Source of the DNA: a virus
Virus record (IMG/VR): IMGVR_UViG_3300030012_000605
Location: 1-29,580 of that record
DNA: 29,580 bases
Reading direction: 5' to 3' (one strand)
Shown here: positions 1,805 through 9,294 of the stretch, piece by piece
Position numbering within the stretch: position 1 is the first letter of the stretch
How the letters are laid out: the number at the start of each line of letters is the position of its first letter
Translations under genes and position numbers: made by a program
Notes under the pieces: generated by a model
The model's database searches: none
What the model was told of the DNA's origin: nothing
What the model saw: the letters and a program-made list of their open reading frames with translations, nothing else

Positions 1805-2209
1805 ATGTCGATTAGTACTGCAGCGTTTGACGATAGTGCGGATGGCTCTAGCAAAGCAACTTTTACACCAGATCGAAATCCAAATATTGGCGTTCAATAC
1901 GGAACGAATTATCAGGGGATTATTAAAAATCAAGCGATAGGTGGAGAATGTTACACTGTAGAAAGATATGGAAAGCGTAGATCTTGGACAATGACATTTA
2001 GTTTTTTAAATAGTACCGATCAAGCAAAGTTACAAGCGTTGATTGATTTCGCAGATGGAAGAAAGAATGAATTTTATTTTGCTGAAGATAATTTTGCAAG
2101 CTCAGGTGCTAATTCAGTAAAAGTAAGATTTGATCAAGATTCATTTTCTTTCGAAGAAGTAGCACAAGGTGCAACAAGTATTACGTTCAATATTATAGAA
2201 CAGCTGTAA
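1805..2209 (+). CDS. Minor tail / virion protein
   Basis: This 134-residue protein starts at an ATG behind a clear AGGAGA ribosome-binding site, 8 bases after the tail hub gene. It is a compact, aromatic, beta-rich sequence with the motif YGKRRSWTMTFSFL around residue 56 and FADGRKNEFYFAED around residue 83, a pattern seen in small phage tail proteins encoded after the hub. It is the last gene of the structural block: a stem-loop and the AT-rich junction follow. No catalytic motif is visible. The tail role is inferred from position and general resemblance. Confidence 0.55.
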   Translation: MSISTAAFDDSADGSSKATFTPDRNPNIGVQYGTNYQGIIKNQAIGGECYTVERYGKRRSWTMTFSFLNSTDQAKLQALIDFADGRKNEFYFAEDNFASSGANSVKVRFDQDSFSFEEVAQGATSITFNIIEQL

Positions 2210-2231
2210 ATTTCTCTCCTCCTCCCTCCTC

Positions 2232-2262
2232 AAGCCCCCTGCGATAATATCAAAGGGGGTTT
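2232..2262 (+). terminator. Stem-loop after the tail genes, terminator-like but without a U-tract
   Basis: AAGCCCCCT (2232-2240) pairs with AGGGGGTTT (2254-2262), giving 9 pairs including one G-U and five consecutive C-G pairs, around a 13-base loop. It lies 22 bases after the last tail gene, where late transcription should end. The bases that follow are A-rich rather than T-rich, so it is not a textbook intrinsic terminator. It may instead stabilise the 3' end of the late mRNA. Confidence 0.45.
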
Positions 2263-2481
2263 AGGTAAAAAAAGCCTCATAAAGCCCTTTAAAAACTACT
2301 TTCTAATATTTTTTAATATAATAATCGTTAAAAAAAAATTTAATTGTAAATGCTTTATTAGATAGCTTAAAAACGATTTAACCTTTTTTTTAAAAAAAAT
2401 AAAAAAAAACTATTTGATAATGGTAATTTATTATTAAATTTGGTTATGTTAGTTAATAAAAAAAATATCTTAGGAGGATAT
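2263..2481 (+). promoter_or_regulatory. AT-rich junction before the early genes, candidate promoter region and 5' leader
   Basis: No gene is visible here. The stretch holds long A- and T-tracts (2328-2337 TTAAAAAAAA and its complement near 2385-2395) and a perfect TATAAT at 2317-2322, but no convincing -35 box at the right distance. Its end is the leader of the first early gene: ATGTTAGTTAA at 2446-2456 and the Shine-Dalgarno AGGAGGATAT at 2472-2481. Both segments are perfectly complementary to one contiguous strand of the intergenic RNA at 3344-3364. The position between late and early modules favours a promoter, and an origin is also possible. Confidence 0.35.
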
Positions 2482-2703
2482 ATGAAACTTACAGAGAAAA
2501 TAAATAGACTGGTTACTTTAAAAGCAGACGTTGTACCAACTTCTTTATCTGTTACTAAAAACAAAGCTGAGATTGTTACAGATAATCCGTCTGATCACTT
2601 TAAGATCTTAAAAGTGTTTGGTGAAGCTACCACCTCTTTGGCTGGATATACCCTATCAAGCAAATTAAGACTTGACCAACAAGTAGTTATCGTAGAAAAA
2701 TAA
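2482..2703 (+). CDS. Small early protein of unknown function
   Basis: The 73-residue protein begins at the ATG placed 4 bases after a perfect AGGAGG; an in-frame ATG 42 bases earlier lacks such a site. It is the first gene after the late/early junction and so probably among the first transcribed. It has a basic N-terminus (MKLTEKINRLVTLKADV), no cysteines, no membrane segment and mixed alpha/beta character. I do not recognise the family. Its leader is complementary in two blocks to the intergenic RNA strand 3344-3364, so its translation may be regulated by that RNA. Confidence 0.7.
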   Translation: MKLTEKINRLVTLKADVVPTSLSVTKNKAEIVTDNPSDHFKILKVFGEATTSLAGYTLSSKLRLDQQVVIVEK

Positions 2704-2724
2704 AATTAGTTAAAGGAGAATAAA

Positions 2725-3090
2725 ATGAAAGATACAAAATATAATGGTTGGACAAACTACCAAACTTGGAACTTTAAAACTTGGATGGAAAATGATCAAA
2801 ATGATTATAGAAATATTTTATCCAAAGTTGAAAAAGCGTTAAAAGAGCTTAGTGAAGAAAAAGATACGAAAACAGTTTACGCTAATATTCCAGATCACTT
2901 ACAAAATTTAAAATACAGAAAAGCATCTATAGTAATCGAAAATTATGCTTGGGAATGGGTTGATAATGTAGTTAGCTCAAAAGCATCTTTTGTAAATGAT
3001 GTTTTGCGTTATGCTATAAATGGTATTAACTTTTACGAAATAGCTGAAGATATTGTAGACAGAGTTGAAGAAGAAATGGAGGTAGTATGA
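2725..3090 (+). CDS. NGWTN-family phage protein (DUF7249-like)
   Basis: The 121-residue protein opens with NGWTNYQTWNFKTWMEND at residues 7-24. This NGWTNxxTW signature belongs to a small-protein family widespread in phages and, from memory, filed as DUF7249. Near the C-terminus INFYEIAEDIVDRVEEE matches the family's usual ending. No biochemical role is established for it that I know of; members generally sit in early modules as here. The ribosome-binding site AAAGGAG lies in a 13-base segment (2706-2718) perfectly complementary to 3349-3361 of the intergenic RNA. The stop overlaps the next start (ATGA), implying translational coupling. Confidence 0.75.
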   Translation: MKDTKYNGWTNYQTWNFKTWMENDQNDYRNILSKVEKALKELSEEKDTKTVYANIPDHLQNLKYRKASIVIENYAWEWVDNVVSSKASFVNDVLRYAINGINFYEIAEDIVDRVEEEMEVV

Positions 3091-3272
3091 ACCCATATTT
3101 ATTTTGGTTTATTGTAGCAATATTTGTTTTAATTTTACAGATGATAAACAAGATCGTGCAATACAAAACATCTGCAAACTTTTGGAAACAAACCGCTTTT
3201 CTAGCAACTGAAAAATATAATGAGTTGCTTGTAAAAAAGTCTATAAATAAAGCCATAGAAAGATTAAATTAA
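3087..3272 (+). CDS. Small single-span membrane protein
   Basis: The 61-residue protein starts inside the previous stop (ATGA), so it is translationally coupled. Residues 3-24 (PYLFWFIVAIFVLILQMINKIV) form one hydrophobic membrane segment, followed by a basic cytoplasmic-type tail with several Lys and Asn residues. No enzyme motif is present. It ends two bases before the structured RNA element. Function is unknown; early small membrane proteins of phages often interfere with host processes, but nothing here shows that specifically. Confidence 0.65.
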   Translation: MNPYLFWFIVAIFVLILQMINKIVQYKTSANFWKQTAFLATEKYNELLVKKSINKAIERLN

Positions 3273-3274
3273 CA

Positions 3275-3391
3275 ATGTTAGGGGAGGATATAAAAATAAC
3301 TTTGTGGGGGCAGGCATCCCTGAGCATCTTCCTGTGTATGCTCATATCCTCCTTTAACTAACATAATGCCCCCACTTTTTTTAAAGGAGGT
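3275..3391 (+). ncRNA. Structured intergenic RNA with crossing helices that can also mask the next ribosome-binding site
   Basis: Three helices are directly visible. Helix A pairs 3277-3291 with 3344-3358: 15 continuous pairs including two G-U. Helix B pairs GTGGGGGCA (3304-3312) with TGCCCCCAC (3367-3375): 9 perfect pairs, followed by seven T's. Hairpin C pairs GAGCAT (3322-3327) with ATGCTC (3338-3343) and abuts helix A. A and B cross, so they form a pseudoknot or exclude each other. The 3' strand of A (3348-3357) can alternatively pair over 10 bases with TTAAAGGAGG (3381-3390), the ribosome-binding site of the gene at 3395. This fits a riboswitch-like attenuator or a small regulatory RNA. 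I do not recognise a named family. Confidence 0.6.
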
Positions 3392-3394
3392 AGA

Positions 3395-3538
3395 ATGAAA
3401 ATAATAAAAGAAAAAAATGGATCAGTCACTATTAGATTGGACAGACCCAAAGGCATGAAAGAGCAAAAATTTTTGAATATTGCAGCCAAGTTAGAAAAAT
3501 TATTGGATCAACTTGGGGGTAAAGTTCGTGTCATCTAA
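3395..3538 (+). CDS. Small basic protein of unknown function
   Basis: A 47-residue protein starts at an ATG 4 bases after the strong site AAAGGAGG. It begins MKIIKEKNGSVTIRLDRPKG, beta-like, and ends in a helix with regularly spaced leucines (LEKLLDQLGGKVRVI). No cysteine or membrane segment is seen. It is the first gene after the structured RNA, and its ribosome-binding site is the one that RNA can sequester. Its end overlaps the next gene by 11 bases. The good ribosome-binding site and the fit to the gene chain support that it is real. Confidence 0.65.
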   Translation: MKIIKEKNGSVTIRLDRPKGMKEQKFLNIAAKLEKLLDQLGGKVRVI

Positions 3539-4400: not shown

Positions 4401-4780
4401 AACGTACAAAGTGGGATGCAGTGTTTTCAGACTACATCAGATACAGGGATAAATGGACTTGTCAAAGATGTGGTAAAAAATACCCTGAAAAATCATCAGG
4501 CTTACATTGTTCCCACTTTTACGGCAGGCGGTCTTGGGGCACTAGAATAGAGCCTTCAAACGCTATGGCAATATGTTATTCTTGTCACATTTTTCTAGGT
4601 TCGAACCCTTATGAACATATAAATTTATGGGAATCTAAATTTAGCAGAAAAGAACAGGACAAGATTCACAAATTACATGCTACTGTAATTAGAAAAAAAG
4701 AAGTAGCTACTCAAGAAAACTATTTAAAACTAAAGGAGGATTTAAATGCAATCAAAGATAATGGACTTGTTAATAAGTGA
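4391..4780 (+). CDS. HNH-type nuclease, NinG/Rap-like recombination protein
   Basis: This 129-residue protein has a zinc/HNH layout: CxxC at residues 24-27, then HCSH at 39-42, Asn57, and CYSCH at 62-66. The sequence around GRRSWGTRIEPSNAMAICYSC resembles the lambda NinG/Rap group, which cleaves branched recombination intermediates. Its place after a putative annealing protein and before replication genes supports a recombination role. General HNH homing endonuclease activity is the alternative, though there is no sign of an intron or of insertion into another gene. The last 35 bases overlap the next gene. Confidence 0.7.
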   Translation: MAIKRTKWDAVFSDYIRYRDKWTCQRCGKKYPEKSSGLHCSHFYGRRSWGTRIEPSNAMAICYSCHIFLGSNPYEHINLWESKFSRKEQDKIHKLHATVIRKKEVATQENYLKLKEDLNAIKDNGLVNK

Positions 4781-5042
4781 TCCGTTGTATCGAAAATCTG
4801 ATAATGCTTTATTGGCAAGAATATGGTATGATCATTTAAAATTTAGAATTAATTCTATGACTGCCGTAGATCTTTTAAAAGAATTAAAAAAAGGTAGCTT
4901 GCCTAATCATAGAACTATTGTAAGAACCAGAGCGAAATTACAAAGCGAAAATCCATATTTAAAAGATAAAGAAGTTGATTTCATAAGAAAAGAACTTGAG
5001 CTTGAAAACAGGATGAAATATTCCCCACGTGATACTTTGTAA
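4746..5042 (+). CDS. Conserved phage replication-module protein, helical
   Basis: The start is fixed by AAGGAGGA eight bases upstream, inside the end of the HNH gene. The 98-residue protein is mostly helical, with RKSDNALLARIWYDHLKF early and LPNHRTIVRTRAKLQSENPYLKD in the middle, a pattern common in short phage proteins encoded next to replication initiators. The second block looks like a DNA-contacting helix pair followed by the ENPxLK ending. No catalytic residues are apparent. A DNA-binding or loading accessory role is inferred from position only. Confidence 0.6.
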   Translation: MQSKIMDLLISDPLYRKSDNALLARIWYDHLKFRINSMTAVDLLKELKKGSLPNHRTIVRTRAKLQSENPYLKDKEVDFIRKELELENRMKYSPRDTL

Positions 5043-6620: not shown

Positions 6621-6838
6621 TGATTGAACAAGAAACATTATTTGATATGTCACCAGATGAGAACAAAGAAATGATAGAAGATACTGAAATAGAGTGGTTA
6701 ATTTTATACTTTAAAGATAATAAAAAGAAAAAATTAACTTTGAATATTGAAAAGCTATTAAGCGTTTATGATTTAGATAATCACTCAGATCTTGTTTATA
6801 AATTAGTAGAGGAAAAAATTGAAAAAATTAGTAGCTGA
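6620..6838 (+). CDS. Small acidic protein with N-terminal sliding-clamp-type motif
   Basis: The start overlaps the SSB-like gene stop (TAATG). The 72-residue, strongly acidic protein opens MIEQETLFDMS. QETLF at residues 4-8 fits the bacterial clamp-binding pentapeptide (Gln at 1, Leu at 4, Phe at 5), and nearly the same sequence closes both glycosyltransferases downstream. The coding DNA for it (6629-6649) is nearly identical to 9268-9288. The rest is helical with a KKKK patch. It may tether or compete for the host clamp; this is inferred. Confidence 0.55.
   Translation: MIEQETLFDMSPDENKEMIEDTEIEWLILYFKDNKKKKLTLNIEKLLSVYDLDNHSDLVYKLVEEKIEKISS
6629..6649 (+). repeat. Direct repeat copy 1 bounding the modification cassette
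   Basis: This copy reads CAAGAAACATTATTT followed by GATATG. It matches 9268-9288 at 20 of 21 positions, and its first 15 bases match 8483-8497 exactly. It encodes QETLFDM near the start of the 72-residue protein, while the other copies encode the ends of the two glycosyltransferases. It may be selected as a protein motif, may mark duplication or insertion of the cassette, or both. Confidence 0.55.
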
Positions 6839-7724
6839 ATATTATCTTACAGAAAAAGAAACTGAAAGATTGCAAGGCACTTTTATAAACGAAAGTCATT
6901 ACAATCAAATTATTGATTACGATTGCGATTGTTACACTAGCAATGGTCAACCGCTTTTCTTTTTTAGAAAAAATTATATTGATTATAATGTACTTGAAGA
7001 TGCTTATGAGGCTATGCATACAGCAGCTACCCCCACAAATAACAGAGGTGCTGCAAGTGGCGGTGAAAGAAGAAATGCTATTTTATTAAGCGGTAAAAAA
7101 AGCAAACAAGATTATATCTTTGACCCAGAAACAAATAAAAGAAAAAATATTTTAAGCGGTATTGCTGGATATTTTGACAGATCTGCTCATTATGATTTTT
7201 GCAGAACAACTGCTTTTAACAAAAATAATTTAGATAAATTCGAAAAGGCAATGCCACTTATAAGAACTGTTGATAGAGGGTTTAAAGAATTAGTTCCTGA
7301 TAGATACAAAAGGCAACTAGCAATGGCAAAAGGAACGCATCCTAATTATGTAATAAAAGATACAGCATTTACAACAATCACTGTAAACAAAGATTTTAGA
7401 ACCGCTATTCATACTGACGATGGTGATTACAAATATGGTTTCGGTAACCTAGTTGCGTATTGTAAAGATATTGAACCCACTTATTTTGTTATGCCTAGAT
7501 TTAAAGTAGCTATCGATTTAAGAAATTGCGATCTGCTTTTAGCAGACGTTCATCAATATCATGGAAACTCACCTATAATAAAAAAATCTGAAGATGCTGT
7601 AAGGCTTTCTTTTGTAATGTATTATAGGGAAAAAATGATCAGATGTATGAGCCCAAGTAAAGAATTAAAAAGAATACAAATGAATCAAAGGAGGGTATCA
7701 ATGGAGCATGCAGGATTGATATGA
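6819..7724 (+). CDS. TET/JBP-family Fe(II)/2-oxoglutarate DNA base dioxygenase
   Basis: This enzyme is expected to hydroxylate the methyl group of thymine or 5-methylcytosine in DNA, using Fe(II), oxygen and 2-oxoglutarate. In the 301-residue product the iron triad is His198, Asp200 (HTD) and His248 (in QYHGN), with Arg262 in VRLSFVMYYREKM as the 2-oxoglutarate contact. The H-x-D to H spacing and the RxSxVxYYRExM ending are characteristic of TET/JBP enzymes, as is the NRGAASG element at 75-81. The TTG start follows an AGAGG site and overlaps the previous gene. The stop overlaps the glycosyltransferase start (ATGA). No C5-methyltransferase was found in the genome, so thymine or host-methylated cytosine is the likely substrate. 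Confidence 0.8.
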   Translation: MKKLVAEYYLTEKETERLQGTFINESHYNQIIDYDCDCYTSNGQPLFFFRKNYIDYNVLEDAYEAMHTAATPTNNRGAASGGERRNAILLSGKKSKQDYIFDPETNKRKNILSGIAGYFDRSAHYDFCRTTAFNKNNLDKFEKAMPLIRTVDRGFKELVPDRYKRQLAMAKGTHPNYVIKDTAFTTITVNKDFRTAIHTDDGDYKYGFGNLVAYCKDIEPTYFVMPRFKVAIDLRNCDLLLADVHQYHGNSPIIKKSEDAVRLSFVMYYREKMIRCMSPSKELKRIQMNQRRVSMEHAGLI

Positions 7725-8503
7725 ATTATAAAATCGCTATCCCATCATACAAAAGAGAACAAACAATAAAAAATAAAACATTAAAACTTTTAGAATCATT
7801 TAAAATAGATCCTAAAAAAATTACTATTTTTGTTGCAGATTCTGATGAATTATATAAATATAAAAAATCATTAGAAAATACTCCGTATGAGGAAAATATT
7901 GTTCAAGGCGTTCTTACTATCGGTGAGCAAAGAAACTTTATTGAAGGGTATTATAATGAGGGTGAAAAGGTAATGATGTTTGATGACGACATTACTGGAA
8001 TTAAAAAAAAGAAAGATCAAGATTTAATTGACATTTTAGATCTTGAAAAAGAAATTATTTTTCGTGGTTTTAATGAAGCTGAAAAATTAGGTTCAAAATG
8101 TTTCGGAATATATGCAGCTGCTAATGCTTATTTTATGAAAGATCGTGTCTACTCAAAACTTTGTTACATTATAGCATCTATGTTTGGTGTAATTATAGAA
8201 AAAAATAATTTTTTAAAAAGAGTTACGAATCATGGTGAAGATTACGAATACAGCATAAGACAATATATTCATAATGGAGTTTTATGCAGATTAGATAATT
8301 ATACTGTCATAAGCAATTATTATAAAGAAGAAGGTGGATTGCAGGCTTTTAGAACTAAAGATTATGTAAGAGAATCTATTGAAAAAATACAAGATATGTT
8401 CCCAGAATATTGTAAAATGTATATAAGAAAGTCAACTGGATTTGCAGAGTTAAGGTTGAAAGATAATGCAGGCAATAAAAATCAAGAAACATTATTTTCA
8501 TGA
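7721..8503 (+). CDS. TET-associated glycosyltransferase (TAGT-like), copy 1
   Basis: This GT-A-type protein of 260 residues starts YKIAIPSYKR, has the metal/nucleotide-sugar acidic motif FDDD at 87-90, and GEDYEYSIR at 172-180 as a likely catalytic acidic region, followed by EGGLQAF. These features and adjacency to a TET/JBP enzyme match the glycosyltransferases described with such dioxygenases, which put sugar on hydroxymethylated bases in DNA. It is translationally coupled on both sides by ATGA overlaps. The C-terminal residues QETLF (255-259) fit a sliding-clamp binding peptide. The sugar donor cannot be told from sequence. Confidence 0.75.
   Translation: MNYKIAIPSYKREQTIKNKTLKLLESFKIDPKKITIFVADSDELYKYKKSLENTPYEENIVQGVLTIGEQRNFIEGYYNEGEKVMMFDDDITGIKKKKDQDLIDILDLEKEIIFRGFNEAEKLGSKCFGIYAAANAYFMKDRVYSKLCYIIASMFGVIIEKNNFLKRVTNHGEDYEYSIRQYIHNGVLCRLDNYTVISNYYKEEGGLQAFRTKDYVRESIEKIQDMFPEYCKMYIRKSTGFAELRLKDNAGNKNQETLFS
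8483..8497 (+). repeat. Direct repeat copy 2 (15 bases)
   Basis: CAAGAAACATTATTT at the end of the first glycosyltransferase gene is identical to the first 15 bases of the copy at 6629 and differs at one position from the copy at 9268. It encodes the QETLF ending. The following bases diverge. Confidence 0.5.
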
Positions 8504-9294
8504 TTGATTATAAAATAGCTATTCCAACTTACAAAAGAAGTGATCTGATTGAGGAATATTGTTTCAAACATCTAAAAGAATCCAATATTAATTTTTCTAA
8601 AATACATTTATTTATACAAAGCAAAAAAGATATGGATCTTTATCGCAAATATGAAAAAAAATATTCTTTAAAATTAATTTATTGTTCTACAAAAAATATA
8701 AATGAAACAAGAAATTTTATAAGAAATTATTTTAAAGAAAATGATTTTATTGTATCTATTGACGACACTTTTAATGGAATTAATAAATTGAATAATGATA
8801 AATTAGAAAAATTTATTGATATTGATGGCTTATGTAAAGATGCCTATAAACAAATGATCAAAAATAATACTAAATTATTTGGTATAAATATGGTGAGCAA
8901 CCCTTTTTTTATGAAGGATAAAATAAGCACAAGAAATGGTGCAATATCAGCTAAATTTTATGGATACATAAACGATAAAGATAAATTTTTACAACCGATA
9001 GCTCCTACTGGATTGGTTGAGGATATAGAACTTGCAATTAGACATTATATAAAATTTGGAAAAATTGTTAGATATATGGGACATACTTTTAATAATGTTA
9101 AATATTTTGAAATTGAAGGAGGAATACAAGCAAGAATGTCAAAAGAAGAAAGAAGAAAACTTAATGATTTAGGAAATAAAGAATTATGTAAAATGTTTCC
9201 AGATTATGTAGTTTTGAAAAAAAATGGTTTTGGGCTTAGGCTCAAACAAAAATATATTAATAAAAATCAAAAAACATTATTTGATATGATATAA
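8500..9294 (+). CDS. TET-associated glycosyltransferase (TAGT-like), copy 2
   Basis: A 264-residue paralogue of the gene before it, sharing YKIAIPxYKR, RNFI, DDxxxGI, FxMKD, ED.E..IR.YI, EGGxQA and the NKNQxTLF ending, yet clearly diverged in between. The acidic motif is IDDT (87-90) instead of FDDD, so metal or donor use may differ, while VED (173-175) is kept. It could act on a different site, add a second sugar to the first, or be a regulatory partner. The C-terminus carries QKTLF (257-261), again fitting the clamp-binding pentapeptide. The start overlaps the previous stop. Confidence 0.72.
   Translation: MIDYKIAIPTYKRSDLIEEYCFKHLKESNINFSKIHLFIQSKKDMDLYRKYEKKYSLKLIYCSTKNINETRNFIRNYFKENDFIVSIDDTFNGINKLNNDKLEKFIDIDGLCKDAYKQMIKNNTKLFGINMVSNPFFMKDKISTRNGAISAKFYGYINDKDKFLQPIAPTGLVEDIELAIRHYIKFGKIVRYMGHTFNNVKYFEIEGGIQARMSKEERRKLNDLGNKELCKMFPDYVVLKKNGFGLRLKQKYINKNQKTLFDMI
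9268..9288 (+). repeat. Direct repeat copy 3 closing the modification cassette
   Basis: This copy matches 6629-6649 except for one A/G difference and encodes the QKTLFDM ending of the second glycosyltransferase. Together the outer copies frame the dioxygenase and both glycosyltransferases. Confidence 0.55.

Follow-up and report, generated by a model that had tools for sequence, protein, structure and literature searches.

An RNA element lying between positions 3275 and 3391 of IMG/VR record IMGVR_UViG_3300030012_000605 is most probably a small antisense RNA of the c4 type, acting on the translation-initiation regions of early genes. The window, that is, the whole stretch of 29,580 nucleotides analysed, also holds tail, NinG-like HNH nuclease, terminase, portal and head genes (29.6-kb record), and the element is flanked by ORF 3087-3272 (61 aa) and ORF 3395-3538 (47 aa). 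Its crossing 'pseudoknot' is best read as a structured antisense body, formed by helix B and hairpin C, together with an upstream copy of the target, A5, on the plan of the c4 RNA of phages P1 and P7. Since the element carries the complement of early-gene start signals, it probably turns off the phage's own early genes, as P1 c4 RNA does. Helices A and B and hairpin C are conserved and covary, the antisense segment A3 is exposed in the predicted fold, and A3 co-varies with both A5 and the target ribosome-binding sites (RBSs) across lineages. The features of the window are as follows.

2414..2440, plus strand: weak promoter-like site, predicted, TTGATA and TAAATT with a 15 nt spacer, 5' of the first early gene
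2446..2456, plus strand: target half-site 1, ATGTTAGTTAA, predicted 5' end of the first early gene or its leaderless start, with its complement at 3354-3364
2473..2481, plus strand: target half-site 2, GGAGGATAT, RBS of the ATG at 2482, complementary to 3344-3352
2710..2719, plus strand: RBS of ORF 2725-3090, TTAAAGGAGA, 10 contiguous pairs with A3
3275..3291, plus strand: A5, contracted target copy, ATGTTAG followed by GGGAGGATAT, partner of A3
3304..3312, plus strand: B5, 5' side of the stem that closes the RNA body
3321..3344, plus strand: hairpin C, TGAGCAT/ATGCTCA, P2-like
3344..3364, plus strand: A3, antisense segment, ATATCCTCC-T-TTAACTAACAT
3367..3375, plus strand: B3, 3' side of the stem that closes the RNA body
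3381..3390, plus strand: RBS of the next gene (3395-3538, 47 aa), 10-bp complementarity to 3348-3357, a further possible target
4730..4742, plus strand: RBS of ORF 4746-5042, CTAAAGGAGGATT, 11 contiguous pairs with A3

Read directly from the sequence, 3277-3291 (GTTAGGGGAGGATAT) pairs with 3344-3358 (ATATCCTCCTTTAAC) over 15 positions, two of them G-U, to give helix A, while 3304-3312 (GTGGGGGCA) and 3367-3375 (TGCCCCCAC) form the nine Watson-Crick pairs of helix B; the two helices cross. Hairpin C comprises seven pairs (3321-3327 with 3338-3344) and, because base 3344 is common to both, either hairpin C or helix A loses one pair. Positions 3348-3357 (CCTCCTTTAA) are the full complement of 3381-3390 (TTAAAGGAGG), and seven T residues occupy 3376-3382. 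Compared with dinucleotide shuffles, the nested fold of the element yielded a z score of -2.81, none of 200 shuffles being as good. The arrangement is far beyond chance because it is kept, with compensatory changes, in 29 other viral contigs. The three helices and the crossing of A and B described in the initial annotation are thereby borne out.

Marine viral contigs were gathered by a terminase scan and by scans with NinG-like proteins and the 47-aa protein, and distant kin were added by a descriptor scan. The curated set comprised 30 elements from 30 metagenomic contigs, the window counted in; in the 29 further contigs the element was located between tail genes and early or replication genes. 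Among close kin the surrounding gene order was conserved, and the same architecture occupied the same intergenic spot with a different sequence. Group 1 (n = 15) is window-like; wherever this was read, the element lies 3' of the 61-aa gene or of its counterpart, and no obvious promoter was seen immediately 5' of A5, so that a free RNA would need processing. In group 2 (n = 15) the last tail gene is directly followed, usually by way of a terminator-like hairpin, by a sigma-70-like promoter and the element, with the predicted +1 at or near the first base of A5. Searches with blastn of the elements from the window, L155 and L056 against annotated phages returned short chance matches only and no cultured phage with the element. 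The Pelagibacter phages HTVC106P and HTVC028P and the Vibrio phages 1.082.O and LP.2, scanned as possible kin, contained no convincing element, and bacterial genomes scanned with the NinG-like protein yielded one relative, a Bermanella MAG, with no convincing element there.

Two further observations were made on the surroundings of the element. A pyrimidine-rich word, TTCTCTCCTCCTC, and a GC hairpin lie directly 3' of the tail-gene stop at 2210-2260 of the window and in its relatives, and are conserved across group 1. Near-identical promoter-RNA-RBS cassettes precede unrelated first genes in L155, L118, L121 and L199 (at about 1.8-2.3 kb), as if genes had been swapped in right after the start codon.

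Covariation was assessed by a strand-swap test on 20 lineages, in which each strand was paired with its own partner or with the partners of other lineages, using 100,000 permutations per helix. Own pairing was stronger than swapped pairing for helix B (-20.5 vs -9.6 kcal/mol), helix A (-15.4 vs -8.2 kcal/mol) and hairpin C (-5.0 vs -1.2 kcal/mol); in each case 0 of 100,000 permutations reached the observed sum, a figure that is no exact probability because related lineages are not independent. The sequences of helix B are highly divergent, as illustrated by GTGGGGGCA/TGCCCCCAC, TTGGGCTGTGT/ATGCAGCCCAA, AACAGCCCTTTAGC/GCTAAAGGGTTGTT and CACCGAGGG/CCCTCGGTG. RNAalifold, applied to seven close relatives with no structure supplied, found helix B, with two-sided compensation at 7 of its 11 pairs, and hairpin C, leaving the A3 segment unpaired and nearly invariant. 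The conserved core is therefore B and C with an exposed A3, and helix A is an additional, alternative pairing. A MAFFT alignment of 14 divergent members shifted B by one base, and so the swap test and the closer set were used instead. Variation of the paired positions without compensation, which had been named as the observation that would speak against the proposal, was looked for in this way; the positions compensate in the strand swaps and in the RNAalifold result alike. Folding predictions for the isolated bodies gave a closing stem and an inner hairpin with A3 mostly exposed in all 30. A third hairpin carrying the antisense in its loop was predicted in L155, L121, L199, L206, L077 and L178, and was absent from the predicted folds of the window and most group-1 members.

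The c4 RNA has three stems; its b' sequence occludes RBSs, a' confers specificity and the RNA is processed by RNase P, which in P1 is reported to make the 5' end of a mature RNA of about 77 nt (PMC5320573). The P1 c4 sequence was used as a yardstick, with its promoter, a1, b1, 77-nt c4 RNA, a2, and b2 over the icd RBS. The marine elements match the order of P1/P7 c4 (RF01695): promoter, target copy (a1/b1, corresponding to A5), closing stem, tetraloop hairpin, exposed antisense, 3' strand of the closing stem and Shine-Dalgarno (SD) target (PMC5320573, PMC8198154, PMC12197685). The closing stem P1 and inner hairpin P2 of C4 have their counterparts in helix B and hairpin C in 30 of 30 elements, with an inner-hairpin loop of four bases in many and of 3-17 in others. 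A3 is antisense to the SD region of one of the phage's own genes and, as in c4, is bipartite, an SD half (b') preceding a half directed further upstream (a'); in the window the b'-like anti-SD half comes first, followed by the a'-like anti-5'-end half. A5, in the place of a1/b1, repeats up to 12 bases of the downstream RBS, or in the window the leader. Both systems sit in a phage operon with the target on the same transcript, and the bodies are of similar size, 52-72 nt in the marine elements and about 77 nt in P1 c4.

Differences from P1/P7 c4 were also evident. The third stem that presents b' in a loop is not predicted for most marine members. The target of c4 is icd/ant, whereas that of the marine elements is an early gene whose identity varies; several genomes have, instead of one target, a group of early genes linked by a shared RBS word. 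Unlike c4, the group-1 body lies 0.5-2 kb downstream of its target, and its anti-upstream half matches a predicted leaderless 5' AUG. The RF01695 covariance model, which found P1 at 68.8 bits as positive control, matched 0 of 18 contigs at E<=10, with no match in the window, L006 or L155, and RF03163 (the a1/b1 element) gave no match in gathering scans. With no RF01695 match at E<=10, the element would work like c4 yet is not filed as a C4 member. As far as can be read from their sequences, the marine elements share the working plan of c4 with no detectable kinship to it, and the earlier remark that no known class was recognised agrees with the absence of a match to any Rfam class.

Matches of A3 of at least 8 contiguous bp involve few genes per contig, nearly all in the early region; in the window, 5 of 42 genes are matched in this way. 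The best A3 match in the genome is the start region of the first early gene, 0.9 kb upstream of the element, where the leader ATGTTAGTTAA...GGAGGATAT occupies 2446-2481. Within the window no leader or A3 word, and no complement of one, occurs twice, apart from GGAGGATAT, which is found again in A5. The initial annotation had given the A strand alternative partners in a stem and in the SD of the next gene. Pairing with either A5 or an SD region is upheld, but the SD of the next gene is just one of several RBS matches, and the idea of a stand-alone riboswitch for that gene is countered by stronger A3 targets at other early-gene starts, above all that of the first early gene.

In group 1, the RBSs matched by A3 belong to several early genes and share a word such as GGAGGACAAATAATG; own-RBS ranks are not always first because complementarity partly reflects the common SD core (GGAGGA). 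When A3 is extended on its 3' side, it has two matches in the first-early-gene leader, one at the 5' end, ATGATGATTAA, and one at the RBS, GGAGGACAAA; in eight group-1 contigs the extended A3 is the best site for this leader, the leader's own complementary strand aside. The change from ATGATGATTAA to ATGTTAGTTAA in the leader of the window is accompanied by a change from TTAATCATCAT to TTAACTAACAT in A3. In L015, L043 and L178, whose leaders are without the 5' ATG word, the anti-ATG half is also absent and only the RBS half matches. Relatives have better-formed promoter sites at the place of the weak site in the window, e.g. TTGACA-17-TAATAT in L101. In nine group-1 leaders a 5' ATG follows the -10-like box by approximately 5 nt and is in frame with, and open to, the SD-led ATG at an offset of 36, 39 or 147; in L022 the 5' ATG is the sole start. 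These data suggest that the first early gene has a leaderless and an SD-led start, both covered by A3, the transcription starts being predicted. The first-gene leader of L097 (about 2.68-2.85 kb), 147 nt in length, has a hairpin of its own, TTGGGAATC/GATTCCCAA, between the 5' ATG and the SD-led ATG, which are in frame, with no stop between them.

The A3 of group 2 forms at least 8 contiguous pairs with one or two of the 21-49 genes per contig. A5 is a copy of the RBS belonging to the first downstream gene, the two having up to 12 bases in common, and each is complementary to A3; for example, GGATGATAACAT stands in both A5 and the downstream RBS of L056, and GATGAGACAAT in A5 (ending ATC) and at the gene start (ending ATG) of L077. 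Own A3/RBS pairing averaged -13.7 compared with -8.9 after swapping, with 26 of 40,320 permutations as good. A purely cis-acting translational switch would draw on the same data: pairing of A3 with A5 would leave the RBS free (ON), pairing with the RBS of the next gene would close it (OFF), B would tether the strands, and a protein, the passage of ribosomes or the kinetics of RNA folding might act as the trigger. The position of A5 at the predicted transcript 5' end, the specific fit of A3 to the RBS that shares bases with A5, and the next gene being the sole strong A3 match in eight group-2 contigs all favour such a switch. We nevertheless consider it unlikely, as the best matches in group 1 are genes 0.5-2 kb upstream, A3 pairs with the next RBS over just 4 bp in L178, a second A3-matching gene with the same RBS word lies 3.6-6.9 kb downstream in L060, L065, L077, L201, L203 and L204, and RNAalifold yields B and C with an open A3 instead of helix A.

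Leaders of the erm type are translational attenuators with SD, anti-SD and anti-anti-SD segments. A3 similarly can pair with A5 or with an SD; unlike in these attenuators, A3 stays open in the conserved B and C body, and other genes often provide the best targets.

It is very improbable that a small overlapping coding sequence beginning at the ATG in A5 accounts for most of the conserved signal, with RNA pairing secondary. The frame runs open across the element in the majority of members examined, is in phase with the next gene in ten group-2 elements and in three more ends overlapping its start, but the peptide changes freely with the compensatory substitutions in B and C, and in the window the frame ends within the element and the peptide shows no conservation. 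In group 2 (e.g. L056:2038-2391, L155, L077) a frame from an AUG near the predicted transcript 5' end spans the element and enters the first gene in frame, and in L201, L203 and L204 this frame ends TAATG at the start of the first gene.

The least probable reading is a ligand-binding riboswitch or an attenuator with a terminator; crossing helices with alternative pairing resemble some riboswitch plans and the T run follows B in the window, but this run is not conserved, outside the anti-SD segment there is no invariant loop resembling a ligand core, the downstream gene varies while the element is almost unchanged (L155, L118, L121, L199) and no Rfam class was matched in gathering and E-value scans. 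Of the translational or transcriptional switch first proposed, the translational part is the most likely; the terminator part, based on helix B and the T run, is unsupported. An intrinsic terminator was rejected, the U run not being conserved in relatives and no terminator-like site being found at 2150-3450, as were an HDV-like ribozyme, considered for its same strand order (long first helix, long linkers and no conserved catalytic-core sequence noticed, by inspection and Rfam), and a type III toxin-antitoxin RNA (neither repeats nor a ToxN-like neighbour were noticed).

For the preferred c4-type antisense RNA the following course may be proposed. Helix B would close the body, with hairpin C as inner stem and A3 (3344-3364) exposed between C and B3. 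Once the early transcript is made, A5, located just 5' of the body, would pair with A3 in the unprocessed precursor and, as a target copy, keep A3 silent or compete with its targets. Processing, possibly releasing the body, or competition would then free A3 to pair with early-gene starts, above all that of the first early gene (2446-2456 and 2473-2481), blocking ribosome entry. The body RNA may act in trans or over a long distance in cis; action in trans is no more than suggested by the distant second targets. The outcome would be early-gene repression, either as feedback or as a timed shut-off.

The sar RNA of phage P22 and similar phage antisense RNAs are, so far as known, encoded at or near a single target. 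Like sar, for which PMC12197685 cites P22 papers, and other phage anti-RBS RNAs, the marine element would be a small phage RNA that controls translation by pairing; unlike sar, it shares its strand with its targets, possesses a two-stem body that is conserved, and may act on more than one target. More tentatively, the marine elements might be a class of their own among phage antisense RNAs, highly diverse, found in marine viruses and not descended from c4. Such a class would address a set of early genes via a shared, co-evolving RBS word and block both the leaderless 5' start and the internal SD-led start of the same gene, with an upstream decoy setting the timing; we regard this as possible, though short of probable.

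Other loci of interest were noticed in the window and among the contigs. Positions 6819-9294 of the window probably hold a module for DNA base hypermodification, in which the gene of a TET/JBP-type oxygenase (PF12851) precedes two TET-associated glycosyltransferase-like genes (PF20691, the second match just below the cut-off). Crossing stems, GGGGCAGCTACT/AGTAGCTGTCCC, also mark another conserved element, present at L141:3133-3235 and in relatives among L134-L144; in L141 it lies 5' of a gene reading as a DNA methyltransferase, and no RBS copy was seen. In L170, 5' of the RBS TAGGAGAAACAATGG, a three-stem element was recognised by eye, with a GGCCCCC/GGGGGCC closing stem and loops, CTCTCTCTCC and GTTTCC, that could pair with the following RBS; it had no Rfam match and is possibly another RNA of c4-like type.

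The occurrence of the same plan as c4 in uncultured marine phages, with no detectable similarity in sequence or to the model, suggests that such RNAs are likely to be commoner than model searches show. Because antisense, decoy and target co-vary, the targets are readable from sequence, and target sets are predictable for each genome because the cassette stands almost unchanged before unrelated genes and target genes share an RBS word. The element thus offers a concrete hypothesis of early-gene control for phages without genetics.
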